A stretch of DNA of 64,000 nt from Candidatus Poribacteria bacterium (GTDB lineage Bacteria > Abyssobacteria > SURF-5). Made by a program: the position numbers and the translations under genes. Of this stretch, positions 8,757-40,172 are shown one piece after another. The DNA is taken from contig JACRIR010000150.1 in NCBI GenBank assembly GCA_016215705.1, positions 47,842-111,841 of the forward strand, in the 5' to 3' direction. Every line of letters begins with the position of its first letter. The first letter of the stretch is position 1. The notes beneath the pieces were generated by a model. That model did no database searches, was not told where the DNA came from, and saw only the letters and a list, made by a program, of their open reading frames with translations.

Positions 8757-9833
8757 TTATTCATGATAGACCGCCAGAATTCTCTCCGCCATTTCCTTCC
8801 ATGTCGGCACTGGATGGGCCATGACATTTGGTTTCTTTTGCCCGCACGCATTGTTTTGGCGGAGCATGCTGACGATTTCTTCAGCCATTCGTTCGGTGGA
8901 CAGAGGGTCCACGAGCCGGGTCGCTCCCGGCGCTATCTCGCTCATGGCGGAATTGTTGGAGGTCAGAACCGGCGCGCCACAGGCGAGCGCCTCGAGAATG
9001 GGAACGCCGAAACCCTCGTAGAGAGTTGTGAAAAGAAACAATCGCGCCCCCGAATAAAGCGCCGGAAGCTCTGCATCCTGAACGTAGCCGGGCAGCAGAA
9101 TCTCGCTTTCGCAATGATGCTCTTTCACGTATTCCAGAATCTGTTCCTTCCCGTACGCTAGCTTACCGGCAGCCACGAATTGCAGGTTTGCGCCCAATCG
9201 TTGTCGAGCCGACAAAAACGCATCGAACATGCGTAACATATTCTTTCGTATCGAGAGAGCGCCGACGAACAGAATGTAATCGGAAGCTATTCCGTATTTT
9301 GCTTTGATTTGCCGCACTTCAGCCTCCGGTCGGGGATAGAATTGGTCATCCACGCCCAAGTGAATCACGCAAATCTTCGATTCGGCCTTTGGGAAAAAGC
9401 GGACAAAATCGCGTCGTGTAGCATCCGAATCGCAGATAATGCGGTCAGCCCGCGCGGCGATGTCTCGATAGTGCGTAATCTTCCTTTCCCGAAACTTGGC
9501 GTCTGCGAACTGGTCGGAAACAAGCGAGAACACGTCGTGCACCGTTGCCACGAGCTTAGGACCACGAATCCTGGGGATTCGGGCGTCCGGCCCATGAAAC
9601 ACATCGATTCCCCGGCCTGAGAAGACCGGCTCCTGGAATAACTTAATCGTGGTCGTTTTCTTTCTGGGCGCATAAAAGCAACCGCGCCTTTTCCAACGAG
9701 AAAGCCGATAGAGGACAACATACTCGTTTTCGGTGTCCAGTTCTTCAAGATTCTCAATCAAACGGTGGACGTATTTGGCGATACCCGTTTTCTGCGGAAC
9801 GGCTGCTGAGCTGGCGTCGATCGCGATTCTCAT
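8757..9833 (-). CDS. GT4-family glycosyltransferase (LPS core)
   Basis: A 358-residue GT-B enzyme. It starts MRIAIDASSAAVPQKTGIAKYVHRLIENL, typical of mannosyl/rhamnosyl-type GT4 proteins. The donor lobe carries ILFVGALSIRKNMLRMFDAF, LLPGYVQDAELPALYSGARLFLFTTLYEGFGVPILEALACGAPVLTS with E-x7-E (EGFGVPILE), and the terminal region is normal. The ATG overlaps the stop of the upstream gene as ATGA, so translation is coupled. The gap to the next gene downstream (8678-8756) holds a TCATTCCCCGGC-type repeat. Substrate unknown. Confidence 0.9.
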   Translation of the reverse strand: MRIAIDASSAAVPQKTGIAKYVHRLIENLEELDTENEYVVLYRLSRWKRRGCFYAPRKKTTTIKLFQEPVFSGRGIDVFHGPDARIPRIRGPKLVATVHDVFSLVSDQFADAKFRERKITHYRDIAARADRIICDSDATRRDFVRFFPKAESKICVIHLGVDDQFYPRPEAEVRQIKAKYGIASDYILFVGALSIRKNMLRMFDAFLSARQRLGANLQFVAAGKLAYGKEQILEYVKEHHCESEILLPGYVQDAELPALYSGARLFLFTTLYEGFGVPILEALACGAPVLTSNNSAMSEIAPGATRLVDPLSTERMAEEIVSMLRQNNACGQKKPNVMAHPVPTWKEMAERILAVYHE

Positions 9834-10966
9834 TTCCGGAAGCCCTCAATCGTTCGTCGGTAGACTTCCAGTGTCTTCTGAACGGAAATCTTCGCAGAAA
9901 ATTCCTGCTCCACCCTTCTCCGGCCCGCTTTCCCCATCTGTTCCCGCATTTCCCTGGAGCGGCACAATTCCGCGATGCGCTCCCTCAGCGAATCAGAATC
10001 CCGCGGCGGAACGATGTAGCCCGTCACCCCATCCTCAGCAATCTCCTTGAGCCCTCCGTAGCTTGAACAGACGACGGGTTTCTGCATTGCCATGATTTCC
10101 TTCATGGAATAAGAGGAGGTATCGACTGCGATTGACGGCTGAACTCCGATGTCGAAGATGGATATGATCTCTCTGATGTCATTCCGCTGTCCTGCAAATA
10201 CGACATTGCGCGAGATGCGCAGTTGCTCGCAAAACTGTTTCAAACGCTCGAGTTCCTTGCCAAAGCCGACGGCGATTATCTTGATGTTCGCGAACTTCCC
10301 GTTGATCAAAGGCGCAGCCGCTTCGAACAGGTATTTGTGGCCTTTGTCCCAGTCGAGCCTGCCAACGAGCCCGATAACGATGTCGGTTTCGGAAATTCCA
10401 AGCTCTTTGCGAAGCTCCGGATCGGGTGGAATCGGGGCAAACTTGTCTGTGTCGACGCCGTTATGAATTACGCTGATCTCGCGCTTCTCGAAGACCGGAG
10501 ACTCCTCAAGCATTTCCTTCACGTAGTTACATACCGAGATCGTTCCATGCGCACACTCGCGGTGCAAGTACCTGTTCAAGAAATGATTCTTGACCGGATT
10601 CGTATTGTGAAGCGTGCGCACAAGTGGGAGCTTTTCCCTTGAGAGAAGGTTTGCCGCCGCCATAACCCAATGGTCCCTGGAGCCGTTTGCGTGAATCAAA
10701 TCAAGCCTATTCTCCGATCTGACCCTCAGAGCAAGCGCAACGTCCCTGGAAAAACTGACCGGCGTGAACCCCCTTCCGAAATCGAATCTGTCAAGCGTCT
10801 CGATGCCGTCCTTGCGGCAATCACGCGCAAGGAAGCTGTCGCGCGGGCATGCCACAAGAGGACGGTGGCCGAAGCGAAGCAGATGACAGGCAAGAATATG
10901 CACATAGACCCGCTGGCCGCCTCCGTGACGATGAAAGTTTGATATGAGGATTGCGTACGACATCAT
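9830..10966 (-). CDS. GT4-family glycosyltransferase (LPS core)
   Basis: A 378-residue GT-B enzyme. The acceptor lobe starts ILISNFHRHGGGQRVYVHILACHLLRFGH, with the GGGQR loop of GT4 enzymes. The donor lobe shows VIGLVGRLDWDKGHKYLFEAAAPL, VVFAGQRNDIREIISIFDIGVQPS and MKEIMAMQKPVVCSSYGGLKEIAEDGVTGYIVP. Residues before MKEIMAM (VDTSSYS) depart from the usual EG-G-x7-E, so the first acidic residue of the pair is not obvious. Two ATG codons in a row open the gene. Coupled to the next gene by ATGA. Likely LPS core assembly; substrate unknown. Confidence 0.88.
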   Translation of the reverse strand: MMSYAILISNFHRHGGGQRVYVHILACHLLRFGHRPLVACPRDSFLARDCRKDGIETLDRFDFGRGFTPVSFSRDVALALRVRSENRLDLIHANGSRDHWVMAAANLLSREKLPLVRTLHNTNPVKNHFLNRYLHRECAHGTISVCNYVKEMLEESPVFEKREISVIHNGVDTDKFAPIPPDPELRKELGISETDIVIGLVGRLDWDKGHKYLFEAAAPLINGKFANIKIIAVGFGKELERLKQFCEQLRISRNVVFAGQRNDIREIISIFDIGVQPSIAVDTSSYSMKEIMAMQKPVVCSSYGGLKEIAEDGVTGYIVPPRDSDSLRERIAELCRSREMREQMGKAGRRRVEQEFSAKISVQKTLEVYRRTIEGFRK

Positions 10967-11071
10967 TTATCCTGTTCGGTCAGACCTCGGAGAGCATGAA
11001 TGTTTCGAGCCTCCTCCCACTTCAGGTGGAAATTCCTTTGTATAGAAAAGAATATTCATGCAAGGGTGGAG

Positions 11072-12223
11072 TTACCCGGTCATTCGCCCCATTTTCAGGA
11101 CCTCTTCATAGATGCGCGCGACTTCTCTGGCCTGGCGATCCAGCCGAAACTTTTCACTTGCTTTCTTGAACGATTGGGCGGACATCGACCTGGCCACGTC
11201 GCGATTGCGGACAAGGTAACGGATGGCCTCGGCCAAAGCGTCCGGAGAATCCTCGATGATCAGGCCGTTTCGGCCGTGATCCACGATTTCGGGAAGCATT
11301 CCCCGGCGGGCCGCTATTATTGGTTTACCCATCGCCATCGCTTCCCTTACTGCGCGGCAGGTGCCATCGGTTCCCGGCATAAGATATATCAAGGCATCGA
11401 GACACGCAAGCGTGTCCACATAATCCTGGCCAACCTGGTAGCCCGCGAATTTCACGAAGTTCTCGAGCCGCATCCGACGAACGGGTTCGACCGCAACCTC
11501 GCGCATGTGCGTGCCTCTTCCTGCGATGAGAAGCCTTACCGCAGGGTCTCTCCCCGACACACGGCTTATCGCTTCGAGGATGACATTGAATCGACGATGA
11601 GGCTGGATTCTTGCCACCACTCCGAAAACGAAGTCTTCTTCGCAAAGCCCGAATCGCGAGCGCACACTCGGTGAGCCGTCAGCGCCATTGAATCGGTCGG
11701 TATCGACGGCGCCGCCCACGACCCAAATTCTTTCTTCGGGAAAATTGAATTGCTCGATAATGGACAGCTTCGCGGACTCGGACGCAACGAGCAGGCCGTC
11801 AGTCAACTTACGCAGCAGGTACCTGGTGCGAAAAGAGGGCTTCATTCCCTCGCCGGAATAGCTGCTTCGCACAACAACGGTCTTCTGGCCGGCTTTGCGC
11901 GCGGAGCGGCCACCCACAAGATGGTCGTTATCCATATGCGCATGAACAATTGTAGTACGGGCCTCTTTCAGGAAGGAGGGCATCCTGCGCAGGTCATACA
12001 TGTTGTCCTTGATATTCAAATGCTTGTTGAGCCTGAACCGCGTAATGGGCTCAAGGCCGCGTTCAGCGGCTGTGGCAAGAACGCTCTTGCTGCCGGTCTT
12101 TGATGACGTGCAGCACGCAAACATCACCCTATAGCCAATTTTCTTGAGCGAAGCGCAGAGATTAATCGCCGGTTCGGCCGGCCCGGTTAATTTCGTGTTA
12201 CTGAAGAGATGTAATATCCTCAT
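11072..12223 (-). CDS. GT4-family glycosyltransferase (LPS core)
   Basis: A 383-residue GT-B enzyme. It opens MRILHLFSNTKLTGPAEPAINLCASLKKIGY, in which GPAEPAI takes the place of the GG-E loop. The donor lobe has VFGVVARIQPHRRFNVILEAI, VKFAGYQVGQDYVDTLACLDALIYLMPGTDGTCRAVREAMAMGKPIIAARRGMLPEIVDHGRNGL; the aspartate-rich DGTCRAVREAM region occupies the E-x7-E position. Its start lies 26 bp inside the end of the upstream kinase gene. About 105 bp without a gene separate it from the next glycosyltransferase. Substrate unknown. Confidence 0.88.
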   Translation of the reverse strand: MRILHLFSNTKLTGPAEPAINLCASLKKIGYRVMFACCTSSKTGSKSVLATAAERGLEPITRFRLNKHLNIKDNMYDLRRMPSFLKEARTTIVHAHMDNDHLVGGRSARKAGQKTVVVRSSYSGEGMKPSFRTRYLLRKLTDGLLVASESAKLSIIEQFNFPEERIWVVGGAVDTDRFNGADGSPSVRSRFGLCEEDFVFGVVARIQPHRRFNVILEAISRVSGRDPAVRLLIAGRGTHMREVAVEPVRRMRLENFVKFAGYQVGQDYVDTLACLDALIYLMPGTDGTCRAVREAMAMGKPIIAARRGMLPEIVDHGRNGLIIEDSPDALAEAIRYLVRNRDVARSMSAQSFKKASEKFRLDRQAREVARIYEEVLKMGRMTG

Positions 12224-13940
12224 ATGCTTCTGATTCCTCGGGGTCAGGCCCCCGCAGAGCTTCGTCGATCCGCCGCGAAATCGCGACTCGCCGGCCGCTA
12301 ATCAGGCGGATGATGGACAAGAACAGCCTGTGCCTGAGCGTAATGTTCTGAACCCCGAAATACTCCTTGTAGAACCTGAGCCGATCGGTTGTCGTGATGC
12401 ACGTCGGGAGGCCATTGAGCTGAGCCAGGTTCTTGATTCGGCGCCGAAATGAGACCCGCCACGGGAACTCGACGCTGTCGGAATCCACGCAGTAGAATCG
12501 GACTTTGCCGTCACCGTCATTACGAACGAGTACGTTCTTTGGCGACAGGTCTTTCTGGTAGATTCTTTTTGCATGGAATTCCCTCAGAGCATGCGCGCCC
12601 GCTCTGACAAAGCTCCTTTTTCTCAGAATTTCCTGATGAGCAAGGCGGCCTGAGATGCGGAAATATGAGCGCTGCAGGAAGACATCGAGACGGGCAGCGT
12701 CGGATATCTCTTTCATAAGAAGGTAGCTGGTATGAAGCAACCCCAGTTTTCTTTCCTCGACAAGCGCGATGGGCTCAGCGCAGGGAACGTCGAGAATCCG
12801 GAGGAGATGACTCGCTTTCCACGCACGCCGACCGCGATGAATGTAGAACGTGTTTTCCAGGAATCTGATAATCCCGCGATTGGCGAACTGCTTGACATAA
12901 ATACTTTCGCCCGCGCCGCGCGGCAATGAGAACGCCGTAAGCATGCTCTTTTTTGTCTCCTTGATGAAGCCGGGCCCTTTCGATGCGGTGATTTGCCTGT
13001 GGCAGTTGATCGCGTCAAGTATCATGGCTTCATCAACATCGCGTCTTCGATAGATTCTGCTATTCATTCGCTCCTCAACGACAAATCTTCCACTCGTCTT
13101 CAGGCATCGCATTGCCCGACTCTTCTGACGTCGTCTCCGAAGAGACGCGGCGGCGACTAGAAGCCTGGCGAGCATCTCACCGATTTTGGCCGCCGAGGCT
13201 TCCGGGCAGTAGCCTGTGAGCACCTTGCGCAACTGGGATTGGTCCAGAAAACCATCCAGCGAGAAGATCATCTTGGCGAGGTCTGCAATACGTCTGCGAG
13301 ACGATAAATCGGATGCGTGACCTGCGGAATGAAGATCGACCAGCCATAGTTTCGGCGGAGCGGTCCCCGTTTCCACAAGGATGTTACCCGTGTGGAGGTC
13401 GGGATGCCAGAACCCGGCAGAATGCATTTGCCGGATTAGCCTGCCGAGAGAACCCAGGAACGCATCAATGGCTTCCGAAACGAGAACGGACTCCTTATTG
13501 GTCAAGCGCGAAAGTTCCTTGACAATATATCCGCTCAACGTATCGCATTCAGGAAGCGCGCGTTGAATGAGCGCACAACCGGTTACGACACCCCCCGAAC
13601 TGCGCTCGCCGAACGCCAGCGGCTCCGCAACCGGAAGACCGGTGTCGAACATTTGTCCCGACATTCTCCATTCCGCCTTCGCCTTTGAAGCGCGGAACAA
13701 TGTCTTGAGTCGCTCGGCCGGTCGCTCGTATTTGTGGACTTTGACAAACATATCAGGAGAGGAGTCGCGAGATGAGATGATGAATGAATCACGAAGCAGT
13801 TTGTGTTTGATCACGCGCACTTCAGGCGAAGTCTCGCCCGATAGAGCAAGAGGAATGACTCTTTCCTTGATGGCATGGGCGAATTCCGTCCTGGCGGTCC
13901 AGCGATACCCCAATAGGCCGAAACAGACATATCTCTCCAT
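12198..13940 (-). CDS. Two-domain Kdo/heptose-kinase-like protein (tandem WaaP/KdkA domains)
   Basis: 580 residues from the ATG at 13940, chosen because AGGGAAGAG lies about 10 bp upstream; a frame back to 13967 overlaps the preceding gene. Two protein-kinase-fold domains of the LPS-kinase type appear in series. The first has FVKVHK (K67), MHSAGFWHPDLHTGNIL (catalytic D181, N186) and LWLVDLHSA (metal-binding D202). The second has SIYVKQF (K350), FHAKRIYQKDLSPKNVLV (D464, N469) and FYCVDSDSV (D486). In the second the usual histidine of HxD is Gln. Family members are about 250-300 residues, so this is a fusion or internal duplication. Likely phosphorylates inner-core Kdo or heptose; which domain is active is unknown. 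Confidence 0.82.
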   Translation of the reverse strand: MERYVCFGLLGYRWTARTEFAHAIKERVIPLALSGETSPEVRVIKHKLLRDSFIISSRDSSPDMFVKVHKYERPAERLKTLFRASKAKAEWRMSGQMFDTGLPVAEPLAFGERSSGGVVTGCALIQRALPECDTLSGYIVKELSRLTNKESVLVSEAIDAFLGSLGRLIRQMHSAGFWHPDLHTGNILVETGTAPPKLWLVDLHSAGHASDLSSRRRIADLAKMIFSLDGFLDQSQLRKVLTGYCPEASAAKIGEMLARLLVAAASLRRRRQKSRAMRCLKTSGRFVVEERMNSRIYRRRDVDEAMILDAINCHRQITASKGPGFIKETKKSMLTAFSLPRGAGESIYVKQFANRGIIRFLENTFYIHRGRRAWKASHLLRILDVPCAEPIALVEERKLGLLHTSYLLMKEISDAARLDVFLQRSYFRISGRLAHQEILRKRSFVRAGAHALREFHAKRIYQKDLSPKNVLVRNDGDGKVRFYCVDSDSVEFPWRVSFRRRIKNLAQLNGLPTCITTTDRLRFYKEYFGVQNITLRHRLFLSIIRLISGRRVAISRRIDEALRGPDPEESEAYEDITSLQ

Positions 13941-13947
13941 TACGGAA

Positions 13948-14781
13948 TCAGCTCTTCCCTCGCACACTTTCAGGCCGGGCGGCTGCGGCGGTTGGGCCTT
14001 GACGCTCGGGCTCTCCCACTTTCCGCGGCGCTTCCCTAACGCTCATTTCCCATAGCCTGGCATATTTGGTGAACACGCTGAAAGCGGCGAGCATGCTTAA
14101 CACAAGTCCGTGTTTTCCATCGAGGAACCCGAGACGCATAACGTACATTTTCAAGAACCGCATACATGGCCGGATAGAAAGGTTAGTCCATGATGGGCTC
14201 CGTTCGCCGGACTTAAGGTCCCCCGCCGCCCACTTCGTATAGCGAAGAAACTTCTCGAAATACTGATCGAGGTTTCTATAGGTATAGTGATAAAGGGGTC
14301 CATCGAGGTACCCCCTCTTGCCTTCGACTTCGATGCAGGCGTGCACTTGCCGGTCCTGGTATCGCCCACGCTCTTTATTAAACAATCTCAAAACGTAGTC
14401 CTTCTCCCAGCCGCCGTGCATGATGGGTTTTCCCAGGAAGAAGCTCTGCCGCTGGACAAAGAACCCGTCGAAGTCCTTCGGATTCTCAAGAACCCGGCAT
14501 ATTGATTGCCGGAGACGCTCGCTCACGCGCTCGTCGGAATCGACAATCATGACCCACTTATGAGTGGCCTGCGGAATCGCCCAGTTTTTCTGCGCAGCCG
14601 AGTTGACGTACTCATGCTGGGCGATCCTGTCGGTGTATTCTCTGCATATCTCAAGCGTGCGATCCGTACTGAAAGAATCCACGACGAAGATTTCATCGGC
14701 CCACTTGACCGAATCGAGACATTCACGAATATTCCCCTCTTCGTTGTATGCGGGAATCAGGATTGTCAGCGGCTCACGCAT
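13948..14781 (-). CDS. GT2-family glycosyltransferase, WaaE/KdtX-like
   Basis: A GT-A inverting glycosyltransferase of 277 residues. MREPLTILIPAYNEEGNIRECLDSVKWADEIFVVDSFSTDRTLEICREY is the nucleotide-sugar domain start; VMIVDSDERVS is the DxD motif region, and DGFFVQRQSFFLGKPIMHGGWEKDYVLRLF is typical of the WaaE group that adds glucose to LPS-core heptose. The ATG at 14781 has AGGA upstream and sits just past the hldC stop; the frame extends upstream to 14805 but would overlap hldC. Position between hldC and the kinase supports a core-LPS role. Exact sugar not provable. Confidence 0.85.
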   Translation of the reverse strand: MREPLTILIPAYNEEGNIRECLDSVKWADEIFVVDSFSTDRTLEICREYTDRIAQHEYVNSAAQKNWAIPQATHKWVMIVDSDERVSERLRQSICRVLENPKDFDGFFVQRQSFFLGKPIMHGGWEKDYVLRLFNKERGRYQDRQVHACIEVEGKRGYLDGPLYHYTYRNLDQYFEKFLRYTKWAAGDLKSGERSPSWTNLSIRPCMRFLKMYVMRLGFLDGKHGLVLSMLAAFSVFTKYARLWEMSVREAPRKVGEPERQGPTAAAARPESVRGKS

Positions 14782-17119: not shown

Positions 17120-17947
17120 TCATTCCCATTTTCGTACAATCGCTGCAATCTCCATCGCTTGTCTGACGAGTCCCTCCATCTTTGCGAGCGGCACCATGCT
17201 TGCGGCGTCGCACTTCGCTTCGGGCGGCGACGGATGACACTCGATGAAAAGCGCGTCGCTTCCCGCGGCCACGCCTGCACGGACCAGATGCGGCACATAC
17301 TCCGGCTTCCCGCCGCGAGGGTCCTTGCTCGGAACGCCATAGATTCGGATGATATGCGTCGCGTCGAAAACCACGGGGAAGCCAAGCGCCTGCATCGTCG
17401 GAATCGCGCACATATCCGACACGAGATTATTATATCCGAAGCACGAGCCCCTTTCAGTCAGTAGAATCCGATTGTTGCCCGTGCTCAGGATTTTGCCCGT
17501 TGCGCTCGACATCCCCTCGGGCGAGAGAAACTGTCCCTTCTTCACGTTCACCGGCTTCCCTGCCGCACCGGCCTTCAACAAAAGACTCGTCTGCTGGCAG
17601 AGATACGCCGGAATCTGCAGGACATCGAGCGTTTCAGCCGCCACGTCCACGTCCGTAGTCCGGTGAACGTCGGAGAGAACCGGCAGGCCGAATTCCTGCT
17701 TCACATTTCTAAGCGCCTTGAGACCATCGACAAGCCCCGGCCCGATATAATTTTTCTCGGAGCCGCGGTTGTCCTTTTCATATGAAGCCTTGAAAATAAT
17801 TGGAATCCCCAGCTTCTCCCTCAGCGAGACCAGATATTTTGCAACTTCGAAGGCTGTGGTCTCCTCTTCAAGGACGCACGGGCCGGCAATCAAAGCGAGG
17901 GGGTGTCCGTGTCCAATAACGACATTGTCAATCCTCACATCTTGCAT
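17120..17947 (-). CDS. kdsA: 3-deoxy-8-phosphooctulonate synthase KdsA
   Basis: A 275-residue aldolase that condenses PEP with arabinose-5-phosphate to Kdo-8-phosphate. Signature pieces: LIAGPCVLEEETTAFEVAKYL, IIFKASYEKDNRGSEKNYIGPGL, PVLSDVHRTTDVDVAAETLDVLQIPAYLCQQTSLL, VNVKKGQFLSPEGM, LLTERGSCFGYNNLVSDM and VFDATHIIRIYG. Full length. It starts 7 bp after the stop of the upstream Kdo-kinase-like gene and is followed by a 207-bp gene-free spacer before the transaldolase gene. First step of the Kdo branch that kdsB completes further down the cluster. Confidence 0.97.
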   Translation of the reverse strand: MQDVRIDNVVIGHGHPLALIAGPCVLEEETTAFEVAKYLVSLREKLGIPIIFKASYEKDNRGSEKNYIGPGLVDGLKALRNVKQEFGLPVLSDVHRTTDVDVAAETLDVLQIPAYLCQQTSLLLKAGAAGKPVNVKKGQFLSPEGMSSATGKILSTGNNRILLTERGSCFGYNNLVSDMCAIPTMQALGFPVVFDATHIIRIYGVPSKDPRGGKPEYVPHLVRAGVAAGSDALFIECHPSPPEAKCDAASMVPLAKMEGLVRQAMEIAAIVRKWE

Positions 17948-17954
17948 TGTGGGT

Positions 17955-19034
17955 TCACACTCCCAATATATCCGAAAACTTCCATTTTATTCGCCAAAAC
18001 GGCAACATCCTAAACAGCTTTGCGGTCAAAACCTCAACGGGCCAACCTGACTCTTCCGCATACGCCCGCAGAAAATGCAGCAAATCCGCTCGTGTCACGG
18101 CCTGATGGAACACGTTGACCTTCTCCCCTGATTGCTCCTGCAAATCACTATTCCCACGCAGGTGGGAATCCATTCTTCTGTCATCCTGACTTCTTCTGTC
18201 ATCCTGACTTCTTCTGTCACCCTGATTTCTTTCGTCATTCCGATTTCTCTTGTCATTCTGACTTCTCTTGTCATTCTGAGCGAAGCGAAGAATCTCCCTT
18301 TCACCTTTCGCCTTTCGCCCTTCGCCTCGTATCTCGTCATTCACTTTCTTTGCCGACCGCAGCAATCGCAACAGATTCATACATTTTCGGAAATCGGAAA
18401 GCGGGGAAATAATCCTTGCCGCATCCAGGTCGAGCAGGAATAGCTGTTCCGCCGATTCTTTCTCTGACAACAAGATATTCTTGAGATGCAGGTCAGCGTG
18501 ATAAATGCCCGCCTTATGCATTTTTGCAATCAACCGCCCCAATGACGCCGCCGTCTTTCCTTTCTTCGCTGACGCTGCCGAAGTTGACACCTGATCCATT
18601 CTCAGCAGCAGTGTCTGTAAATCCTCGCTCTGGGTGATCTCCCTTAGCGCTATGGCGCCCTTATAGAATATTGGTGAACTTCGCTCGACGGCGGCGGCAA
18701 GTATCTCAGGCGTCGGAATACCTCTTGACCGAGCAAACTCGGAAGCTTCCAACTCCATCAACGGGCGCGGCTTGCCCCAATTTACGTATTTTCCCTTCCA
18801 GAATCTGCCGAGAACACCTCCGCGCACATATCTTCGGACTAATGCCCGCTCTTCCGGCCTCTCGGACAGGGGGAACGGGATTAGTCGAGCGCGTCCATGA
18901 TGGGGTGAGTGTGTGTCCCTGCTGTCGGAAACCTCCGGTATTATGAAATTCTGAAAGCTGCGCGCATAACCCTCTTTAACTACAGTGGTTAGATTGTCTC
19001 TCACAACAACTTGATATCCCGGAAAACAAAGCAT
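17955..19034 (-). CDS. Kdo-kinase-like protein (KdkA/WaaP family) with repeat-derived insertion
   Basis: A 359-residue LPS kinase. LIAKMHKAGIYHADLHLKNILLS contains the catalytic HxD (D181) and N186; LFLLDLDAARI supplies the metal-binding aspartates near 202-204; an N-terminal FWKGKYVNWGKPRPLMELEASEFARSRGIPTPEILA is typical of the family. Residues about 237-305 form an odd, highly charged stretch with six-residue units (RSQNDK, RNRNDE, RNQGDR, RSQDDR twice), encoded by a DNA repeat array otherwise found between genes. The C-terminus (FHQAVTRADLLHFLRAYAEESGWP...) continues in frame. First gene of the LPS cluster. Possibly acts on Kdo of the inner core. Confidence 0.82.
   Translation of the reverse strand: MLCFPGYQVVVRDNLTTVVKEGYARSFQNFIIPEVSDSRDTHSPHHGRARLIPFPLSERPEERALVRRYVRGGVLGRFWKGKYVNWGKPRPLMELEASEFARSRGIPTPEILAAAVERSSPIFYKGAIALREITQSEDLQTLLLRMDQVSTSAASAKKGKTAASLGRLIAKMHKAGIYHADLHLKNILLSEKESAEQLFLLDLDAARIISPLSDFRKCMNLLRLLRSAKKVNDEIRGEGRKAKGEREILRFAQNDKRSQNDKRNRNDERNQGDRRSQDDRRSQDDRRMDSHLRGNSDLQEQSGEKVNVFHQAVTRADLLHFLRAYAEESGWPVEVLTAKLFRMLPFWRIKWKFSDILGV
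18150..18297. repeat. Repeat array inside the Kdo-kinase gene
   Basis: Plus-strand reading: a hairpin-like TTCCCACGCAGGTGGGAATCC (18151-18171), then about six 18-bp units of the form TCATCCTGACTTCTTCTG from about 18174, ending in GTCATTCTGAG plus CGAAGCGAAGAATCTC (about 18268-18295). These pieces match repeats located between genes elsewhere in the window (40091-40172, 49603-49638, 57123-57229). Here the unit length is a multiple of three and no stop interrupts the kinase frame. Confidence 0.8.
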
Positions 19035-40090: not shown

Positions 40091-40172
40091 ATCATTCCCA
40101 TTTCTCTTTGCCATTCCCGCTTCTCCTTGTCATTCCCGCTTCTCCTTGTCATTCCCGAAAAGACAGGAATCC
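40091..40172. repeat. Intergenic TCATTCCCG tandem repeat
   Basis: Three to four units of TCATTCCCGCTTCTCCTTG (19 bp) and a terminal AAAAGACAGGAATCCAG, in the gap between flgL and fliW. The unit is the same family as the 18-bp units inside the Kdo-kinase gene at 18150-18297, but here with a 19-bp period. Non-coding. Confidence 0.75.

Follow-up and report, generated by a model that had tools for sequence, protein, structure and literature searches.

A palindromic repeat array read in frame within a Kdo/WaaP-family kinase gene of a Candidatus Poribacteria bacterium

Results

A repeat array inside an open kinase frame

The window analysed here, a stretch of 64,000 nt from contig JACRIR010000150.1 of a Candidatus Poribacteria bacterium, carries a kinase gene next to kdsA and, within the kinase gene, an array of short repeats. 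The features referred to below are as follows (window positions):

17120-17947, minus strand: kdsA, KDO-8-phosphate synthase, the next gene and the basis of synteny with the related genome G001 (NF003543, E=7e-101; neighbour in G001)
17955-19034, minus strand: gene for a 359-aa Kdo/WaaP-family kinase, containing the insert (PF06293; NF002475; syntenic orthologue in G001)
18096-18353, minus strand: expanded linker, residues 228-313, 86 aa vs 11 in the orthologue, a net gain of 75 aa or 225 bp (alignment with 71 homologues)
18150-18172, plus strand: CGTC-1/dRS3-like hairpin ATTCCCAC-GCAG-GTGGGAAT-CCA with an 8-bp stem (sequence; other genome copies)
18173-18279, plus strand: tandem run of six 18-bp units (TTCTTCTGTCATCCTGAC and similar sequences), each a spacer plus the left arm TGTCAT(C/T)CTGA
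18270-18296, plus strand: terminal full-length element GTCATTCTGAGCGAAGCGAAGAATCTC, a hairpin with a GAA loop
18298-18330, plus strand: CTTTCACCTTTCGCCTTTCGCCCTTCGCC low-complexity block, the remaining insert on that side (recurrent genome sequence)
40092-40157, plus strand: array between fliW and flgL used for comparison, built of 19-bp units and closed by a CGTC-1-type element (TCATTCCCGAAAAGACAGGAATCC)

The kinase ORF matched the Pfam Kdo family (PF06293) over residues 64-230 (E=2e-25), and its best NCBIfam match was the Kdo kinase model NF002475, at 100 bits vs a cut-off of 142. Since this equivalog is the best named model and yet falls under its cut-off, "Kdo/WaaP-family kinase" is the safe name for the gene. 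The frame is uninterrupted, with no stops and no frameshifts in its 359 codons, the array included, and the invariant residues H179, D181, N186, D202 and D204 are all intact, as compared across 54 homologues. Elsewhere in the window, a 589-aa ORF (12198-13967, minus strand) shows two weak and separate kinase-family matches (12417-12947 and 13257-13643) and resembles a 587-aa frame in G001; it possibly holds two kinase domains in one protein.

The array as a whole (18150-18297) consists of the hairpin, then the six 18-bp units and then the terminal full element, all read on the minus strand, and these are the parts that a sequence-only reading of this DNA had placed in frame within a Kdo-type kinase gene. 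The hairpin folds as DNA at -7.7 kcal/mol (z=-5.2), carries CACT at its 5' tag position instead of CGTC/TGTC, and was matched in none of 100 shuffles. On the coding strand, the 18-bp units (TRF score 123) translate into (R/K/E)R(S/N)(Q/R)(D/N/G)D repeats and the terminal element into EILRFAQND. Sequences like the adjoining CTTTCACCTTTCGCCTTTCGCCCTTCGCC block recur in the genome as well: 31 and 23 such copies were counted across 1.56 Mb (reversed control, 1 and 0). Recognisable repeat makes up ~49 aa of the 75-aa net insert, and ~26 aa lie outside the named repeat.

The insert follows the catalytic motifs and separates the kinase core from the final pair of helices. In an AlphaFold2 model derived from 54 sequences (mean pLDDT 86.6), the best solved structural match of which is WaaP (6dfl), the insert extends one helix (pLDDT ~77-86 up to residue 270), and disorder is predicted at ~278-314, with pLDDT <50 for residues 278-301. 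The two final helices follow with pLDDT ~93-98 except at the last residues; the kinase fold is thus predicted to resume past the insert, as had been proposed from the sequence.

The insert is absent from the same-family orthologue

The searched set contained two other genomes of the phylum, G001 and G002, both of the same family as the window genome, and G001 supplied the sole same-family orthologue of the kinase. This orthologue is syntenic, beside kdsA, and is 49% identical to the window kinase, with a linker of 11 aa vs 86; an alignment with close homologues was the check that the sequence-only reading had proposed. The 45 residues downstream of the insert are still alignable (44% identity). 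Kinase homologues in three other families also lacked the insert, and a single-sequence search of the genome contigs found no close homologues.

The median linker was 17 aa among the window kinase, its orthologue and 71 homologues found by profile. Linkers longer than 30 aa occurred in only 8 of the 71, from Planctomycetota (Brocadia-like lineages), the longest having 77 aa. Homologues with repeat-free linkers of similar length, which the sequence-only reading had named as evidence that would count against it, are thus present in distant Planctomycetota (52-77 aa at the insert site, without recognisable repeats) and absent in the close relative. A repeat origin for these long linkers was not supported, as a pattern search of their own genomes gave one copy each with up to 3 mismatches. 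Six Planctomycetota kinases (L175, L177, L179, L194, L223 and L243) have independent, variable long linkers at this position, encoded in some of them by low-complexity DNA resembling CCTCCCTCGATGGGAGAGG. Because the orthologue and most homologues have short linkers, and those of Planctomycetota are long without repeats, the site is a tolerant linker that was lengthened independently at least twice; given the long repeat-free linkers of some distant homologues, part of the linker length in the window kinase could be older than the repeat.

The repeat family is expanded in the window genome

We found ~210 copies of the terminal element in the window genome (5.5 Mb), as compared with 7 and 3 in the two family relatives; a reversed-pattern control gave no matches vs at least 200 element copies. 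Its occurrence in other lineages is sporadic (12/60 genomes searched). The stem comprises 5 pairs, a GA/GA mismatch and 2 pairs around the GAA loop, and across genomes the hairpin is kept by two-sided changes at 4 of the 7 pairs, a level that 1 of 500 shuffles reached. CGTC-1 hairpins of the form CGTC/TGTC-ATTCCCGC-GAAA-GCGGGAAT-CCA are likewise present in the genome, and most other genome copies of the CGTC-1-like hairpin bear a CGTC or TGTC tag. Rfam gave no match, and neither the repeat sequence nor its translation CHSERSEES was found in a search of the literature. RAYT was considered as the mover of the element and rejected, since the element is absent from the 1.9-3.3 kb loci that hold the three PF01797 (Y1 transposase) genes of the genome.

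Location relative to genes was counted in ~1.56 Mb of genome stretches, with frames read stop-to-stop. Among the 152 elements in 1.31 Mb, positions in the middle of recognisable genes were limited to the kinase pair and a single further locus, and the 16 more in the added stretches included none. Several copies of a ~150-bp MITE-like element with GTCATTCTGAGCGAAGCGAAGAATCTC in its middle and ends near CTAGTA.GACGTTTCC and TTAGGAAGCGCTCTACTAG were also seen (L025, L027, L028, L036 and L043). Arrays of 21-bp units (AGTCCCTCGCCGGTTTCTTGG) occur at L046 (1-303) and L077 (13709-13807), both at a contig end and one of them ending at a GTCATTCTGAG element; the repeats probably break the assembly there.

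Unit length and the reading frame

The modal unit length in 23 arrays was 20 bp (10 arrays), 21 bp (11), 22 bp (1) or 18 bp (1), and one 17-bp array was seen in addition. With 21 bp as the commonest intergenic unit, multiples of three are common outside genes. The sequence-only reading had held that selection kept only frame-preserving units, and had contrasted the kinase array with one of the same family between fliW and flgL. The latter array does have 19-bp units, but its final element is of the other type (TCATTCCCGAAAAGACAGGAATCC). Among arrays of at least three units, all spacings were multiples of three in 3/17 non-genic and 2/2 genic arrays (Fisher p = 0.058), a comparison that rests on n=2 on the genic side and in which a gene-breaking array would have counted as non-genic. 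Spacer words of the kinase units, TTCTC(C/T)TTG, also turn up in non-genic arrays, there within 19-bp units, the kinase units being uniformly 1 base shorter. This modestly favours the claim; given the intergenic 21-bp units and the small genic sample, selection that kept only frame-preserving, 18-bp units is weakly supported overall.

A second array in frame in an unrelated gene

The other mid-gene locus (L113, G000:C211, 10924-11013) consists of three 21-bp repeats and a terminal element, in frame inside an SBP_bac_5 domain, the match to which spans the array (E=1.4e-89). In the transporter genes of G001 and G002, which are 66-77% identical, exactly 38 aa are missing at the array site, making this an independent second case. 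The array is read on the opposite strand relative to the element, as compared with the kinase, and encodes RHSEPPP rather than RSQDDR, so that the encoded peptide is an accident of frame. The SBP_bac_5 domain shares one 1049-codon open frame with BPD_transp_1 (9471-12617), an SBP-permease fusion common to both relatives, in which it likewise occupies one open frame (871 and 915 aa). A further in-frame 21-bp array occupies the C-terminal end of an ORF (L121, 9292-10179, minus strand) that by eye looks like a small ThiS/MoaD-like protein and has no Pfam match; it may represent read-through beyond the real gene end.

Discussion

Origin of the insert

We consider it likely that a lineage-specific repeat expansion put a compound repeat into the kinase loop and that its units were then reiterated while the gene stayed readable. 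According to this model, CGTC-type palindromic repeats expanded in the lineage, and a compound repeat, composed of a CGTC-1 hairpin and a GTCATTCTGAG-type element, would have entered the loop that joins the kinase core to its two final helices. Reiteration of the left half of this second element would subsequently have produced the 18-bp units, probably through replication slippage that halted at the hairpin apex, and the outcome would be a charged spacer, partly helical and partly disordered, that is probably neutral. The gene would have remained readable because the units are multiples of three, the frame is open and a surface linker is tolerant; the protein would then be translated and could retain its kinase activity. 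The idea that a repeat had here become protein is supported, at the level of sequence comparison, by the G001 orthologue and by most of the 71 homologues, which lack the long linker, and the transporter gene displays such an event cleanly.

The arrays themselves carry information on how they might grow. An upstream copy is present at 28 loci, and at 27 of them the similarity of the reiterated unit to the terminal element is confined to bases 1 to 10-14 of that element, comprising the tag and the arm up to the hairpin apex, which suggests that slippage is limited by the hairpin. Some two-unit arrays are without the matching left flank expected from simple tandem duplication, and spacers recur between loci, so that ready-made arrays were probably also dispersed. 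A tentative and less likely extension is that the process operates genome-wide: replication would stall at the apex of CGTC-type hairpins and reiterate the tag, left arm and spacer, with a single full element left at the end each time, and of the resulting 17-22 bp tandem repeats those with lengths of 3n would be filtered into proteins at tolerant linkers.

The same observations could be read differently. Had the linker already been long and variable, the repeat could have replaced or decorated it, a swap rather than an insertion, and both the Planctomycetota homologues with long linkers at the same place and the 26 aa of the insert outside the repeat fit such a history. We regard it as unlikely, because the orthologue from the same family has a linker of 11 aa, the median linker is 17 aa, and the long-linker clade is distant. 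It is about as unlikely that the kinase gene is decaying into a pseudogene, its frame open by luck and its protein not made or inactive. An open frame is in itself not improbable, since four of the six frames of the 18-bp array are stop-free, and the 13 differences between units, which fall on codon positions 1, 2 and 3 in the proportion 4/7/2, have no third-position excess; against this stand the intact catalytic residues, the absence of stops and frameshifts, and the alignable 45-residue downstream part, which is confidently folded in the model.

The codon-position pattern also bears on the possibility that the charged (RSQDDR)n spacer was actively favoured by selection, for example for binding to a membrane or a partner, and that the repeat was recruited for function. 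The strongly charged in-phase units, the long charged helix predicted for them and the 18-bp length kept in all units would agree with recruitment. With 11/13 unit differences at codon positions 1 and 2, however, we see no sign of selection on the linker amino acids, the second genic array codes for the unrelated RHSEPPP, and the orthologue manages with only 11 aa here, which together make recruitment quite improbable. Least probable of all is an assembly artefact in which a repeat-mediated join placed the array in the gene: the genome is a draft of 270 contigs with many repeats, and several contigs end in arrays, but both halves of the kinase are orthologous to and collinear with G001 beside kdsA, the frame is kept, the units have diverged, and the contig extends over 112 kb. 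Insertion of a compound repeat followed by reiteration of its units hence remains our preferred explanation.

Relation to known repeat systems

Several known repeat systems resemble the one described here. PARCEL coding repeats are tandem coding repeats with dyad symmetry that have spread between genomes; they encode a conserved 25-residue protein motif, whereas here the peptide is set by the frame of the DNA repeat (PMC2996958). CGTC-tagged REPs (Di Nocera 2013, PMC3733652) are, in the portion of that account drawn on here, short stem-loops with a CGTC/TGTC tag, AT as the first stem bases and a CCA tail. The same portion reports that both CGTC and GTAG REPs occur within genes, where clusters of them code for 43-82 aa in Thauera and R. 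conorii, and equates the dRS3 repeats of Neisseria with CGTC-1. The kinase hairpin resembles dRS3/CGTC-1 in its 8-bp stem starting with AT, its 4-base loop GCAG and its CCA tail (18170-18172), and differs from CGTC-1 in having CACT where a CGTC/TGTC/CCTC tag would be, and from dRS3 in its host, in being joined to a second element type and in its position inside a gene. Judged by these features, the hairpin family of the genome is CGTC-1-like, and the kinase copy a degenerate or related member. The terminal element (18270-18296) shares with the CGTC-type REP superfamily a TGTC tag and an AT-first palindromic stem (TGTC-ATTCT..GC-GAA-GC..AGAAT). CGTC REPs as described in the text of PMC3733652 have an 8-9 bp stem, a 4-5 base loop and a CCA tail; the GTCATTCTGAGCGAAGCGAAGAATC element has 7 standard pairs (5+2) interrupted by a GA/GA mismatch, with GAA as its 3-base loop and CTC as its tail, and may or may not be one of the four published families.

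In-frame palindromic inserts are established for the Rickettsia palindromic elements (RPE; Ogata 2000, 2002), according to the section of PMC10969869 used here. As there, a dispersed short palindromic DNA lies in frame in protein genes, and the added peptide appears tolerated by the host protein; a multi-copy dispersed repeat (~210), an insert absent from orthologues and a kept frame were all seen in both the kinase and the transporter. RPEs as described in that section are palindromic inserts, whereas the kinase insert is mostly a tandem series of 18-bp units that are truncated; the lineage is unrelated, and only two such genes were found. In the parts of the RPE and CGTC-REP literature compared, a tandem half-repeat architecture is not described. 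By analogy with these systems, the kinase array is a new instance of an in-frame palindromic repeat in a new lineage, of modest novelty: in a lineage about which little is known, intergenic repeats become protein in two unrelated genes, and relatives free of the insert fix the direction of change. The recurrent architecture, many truncated units and one full terminal palindrome, could serve for tests of how short repeats grow in number in bacteria.
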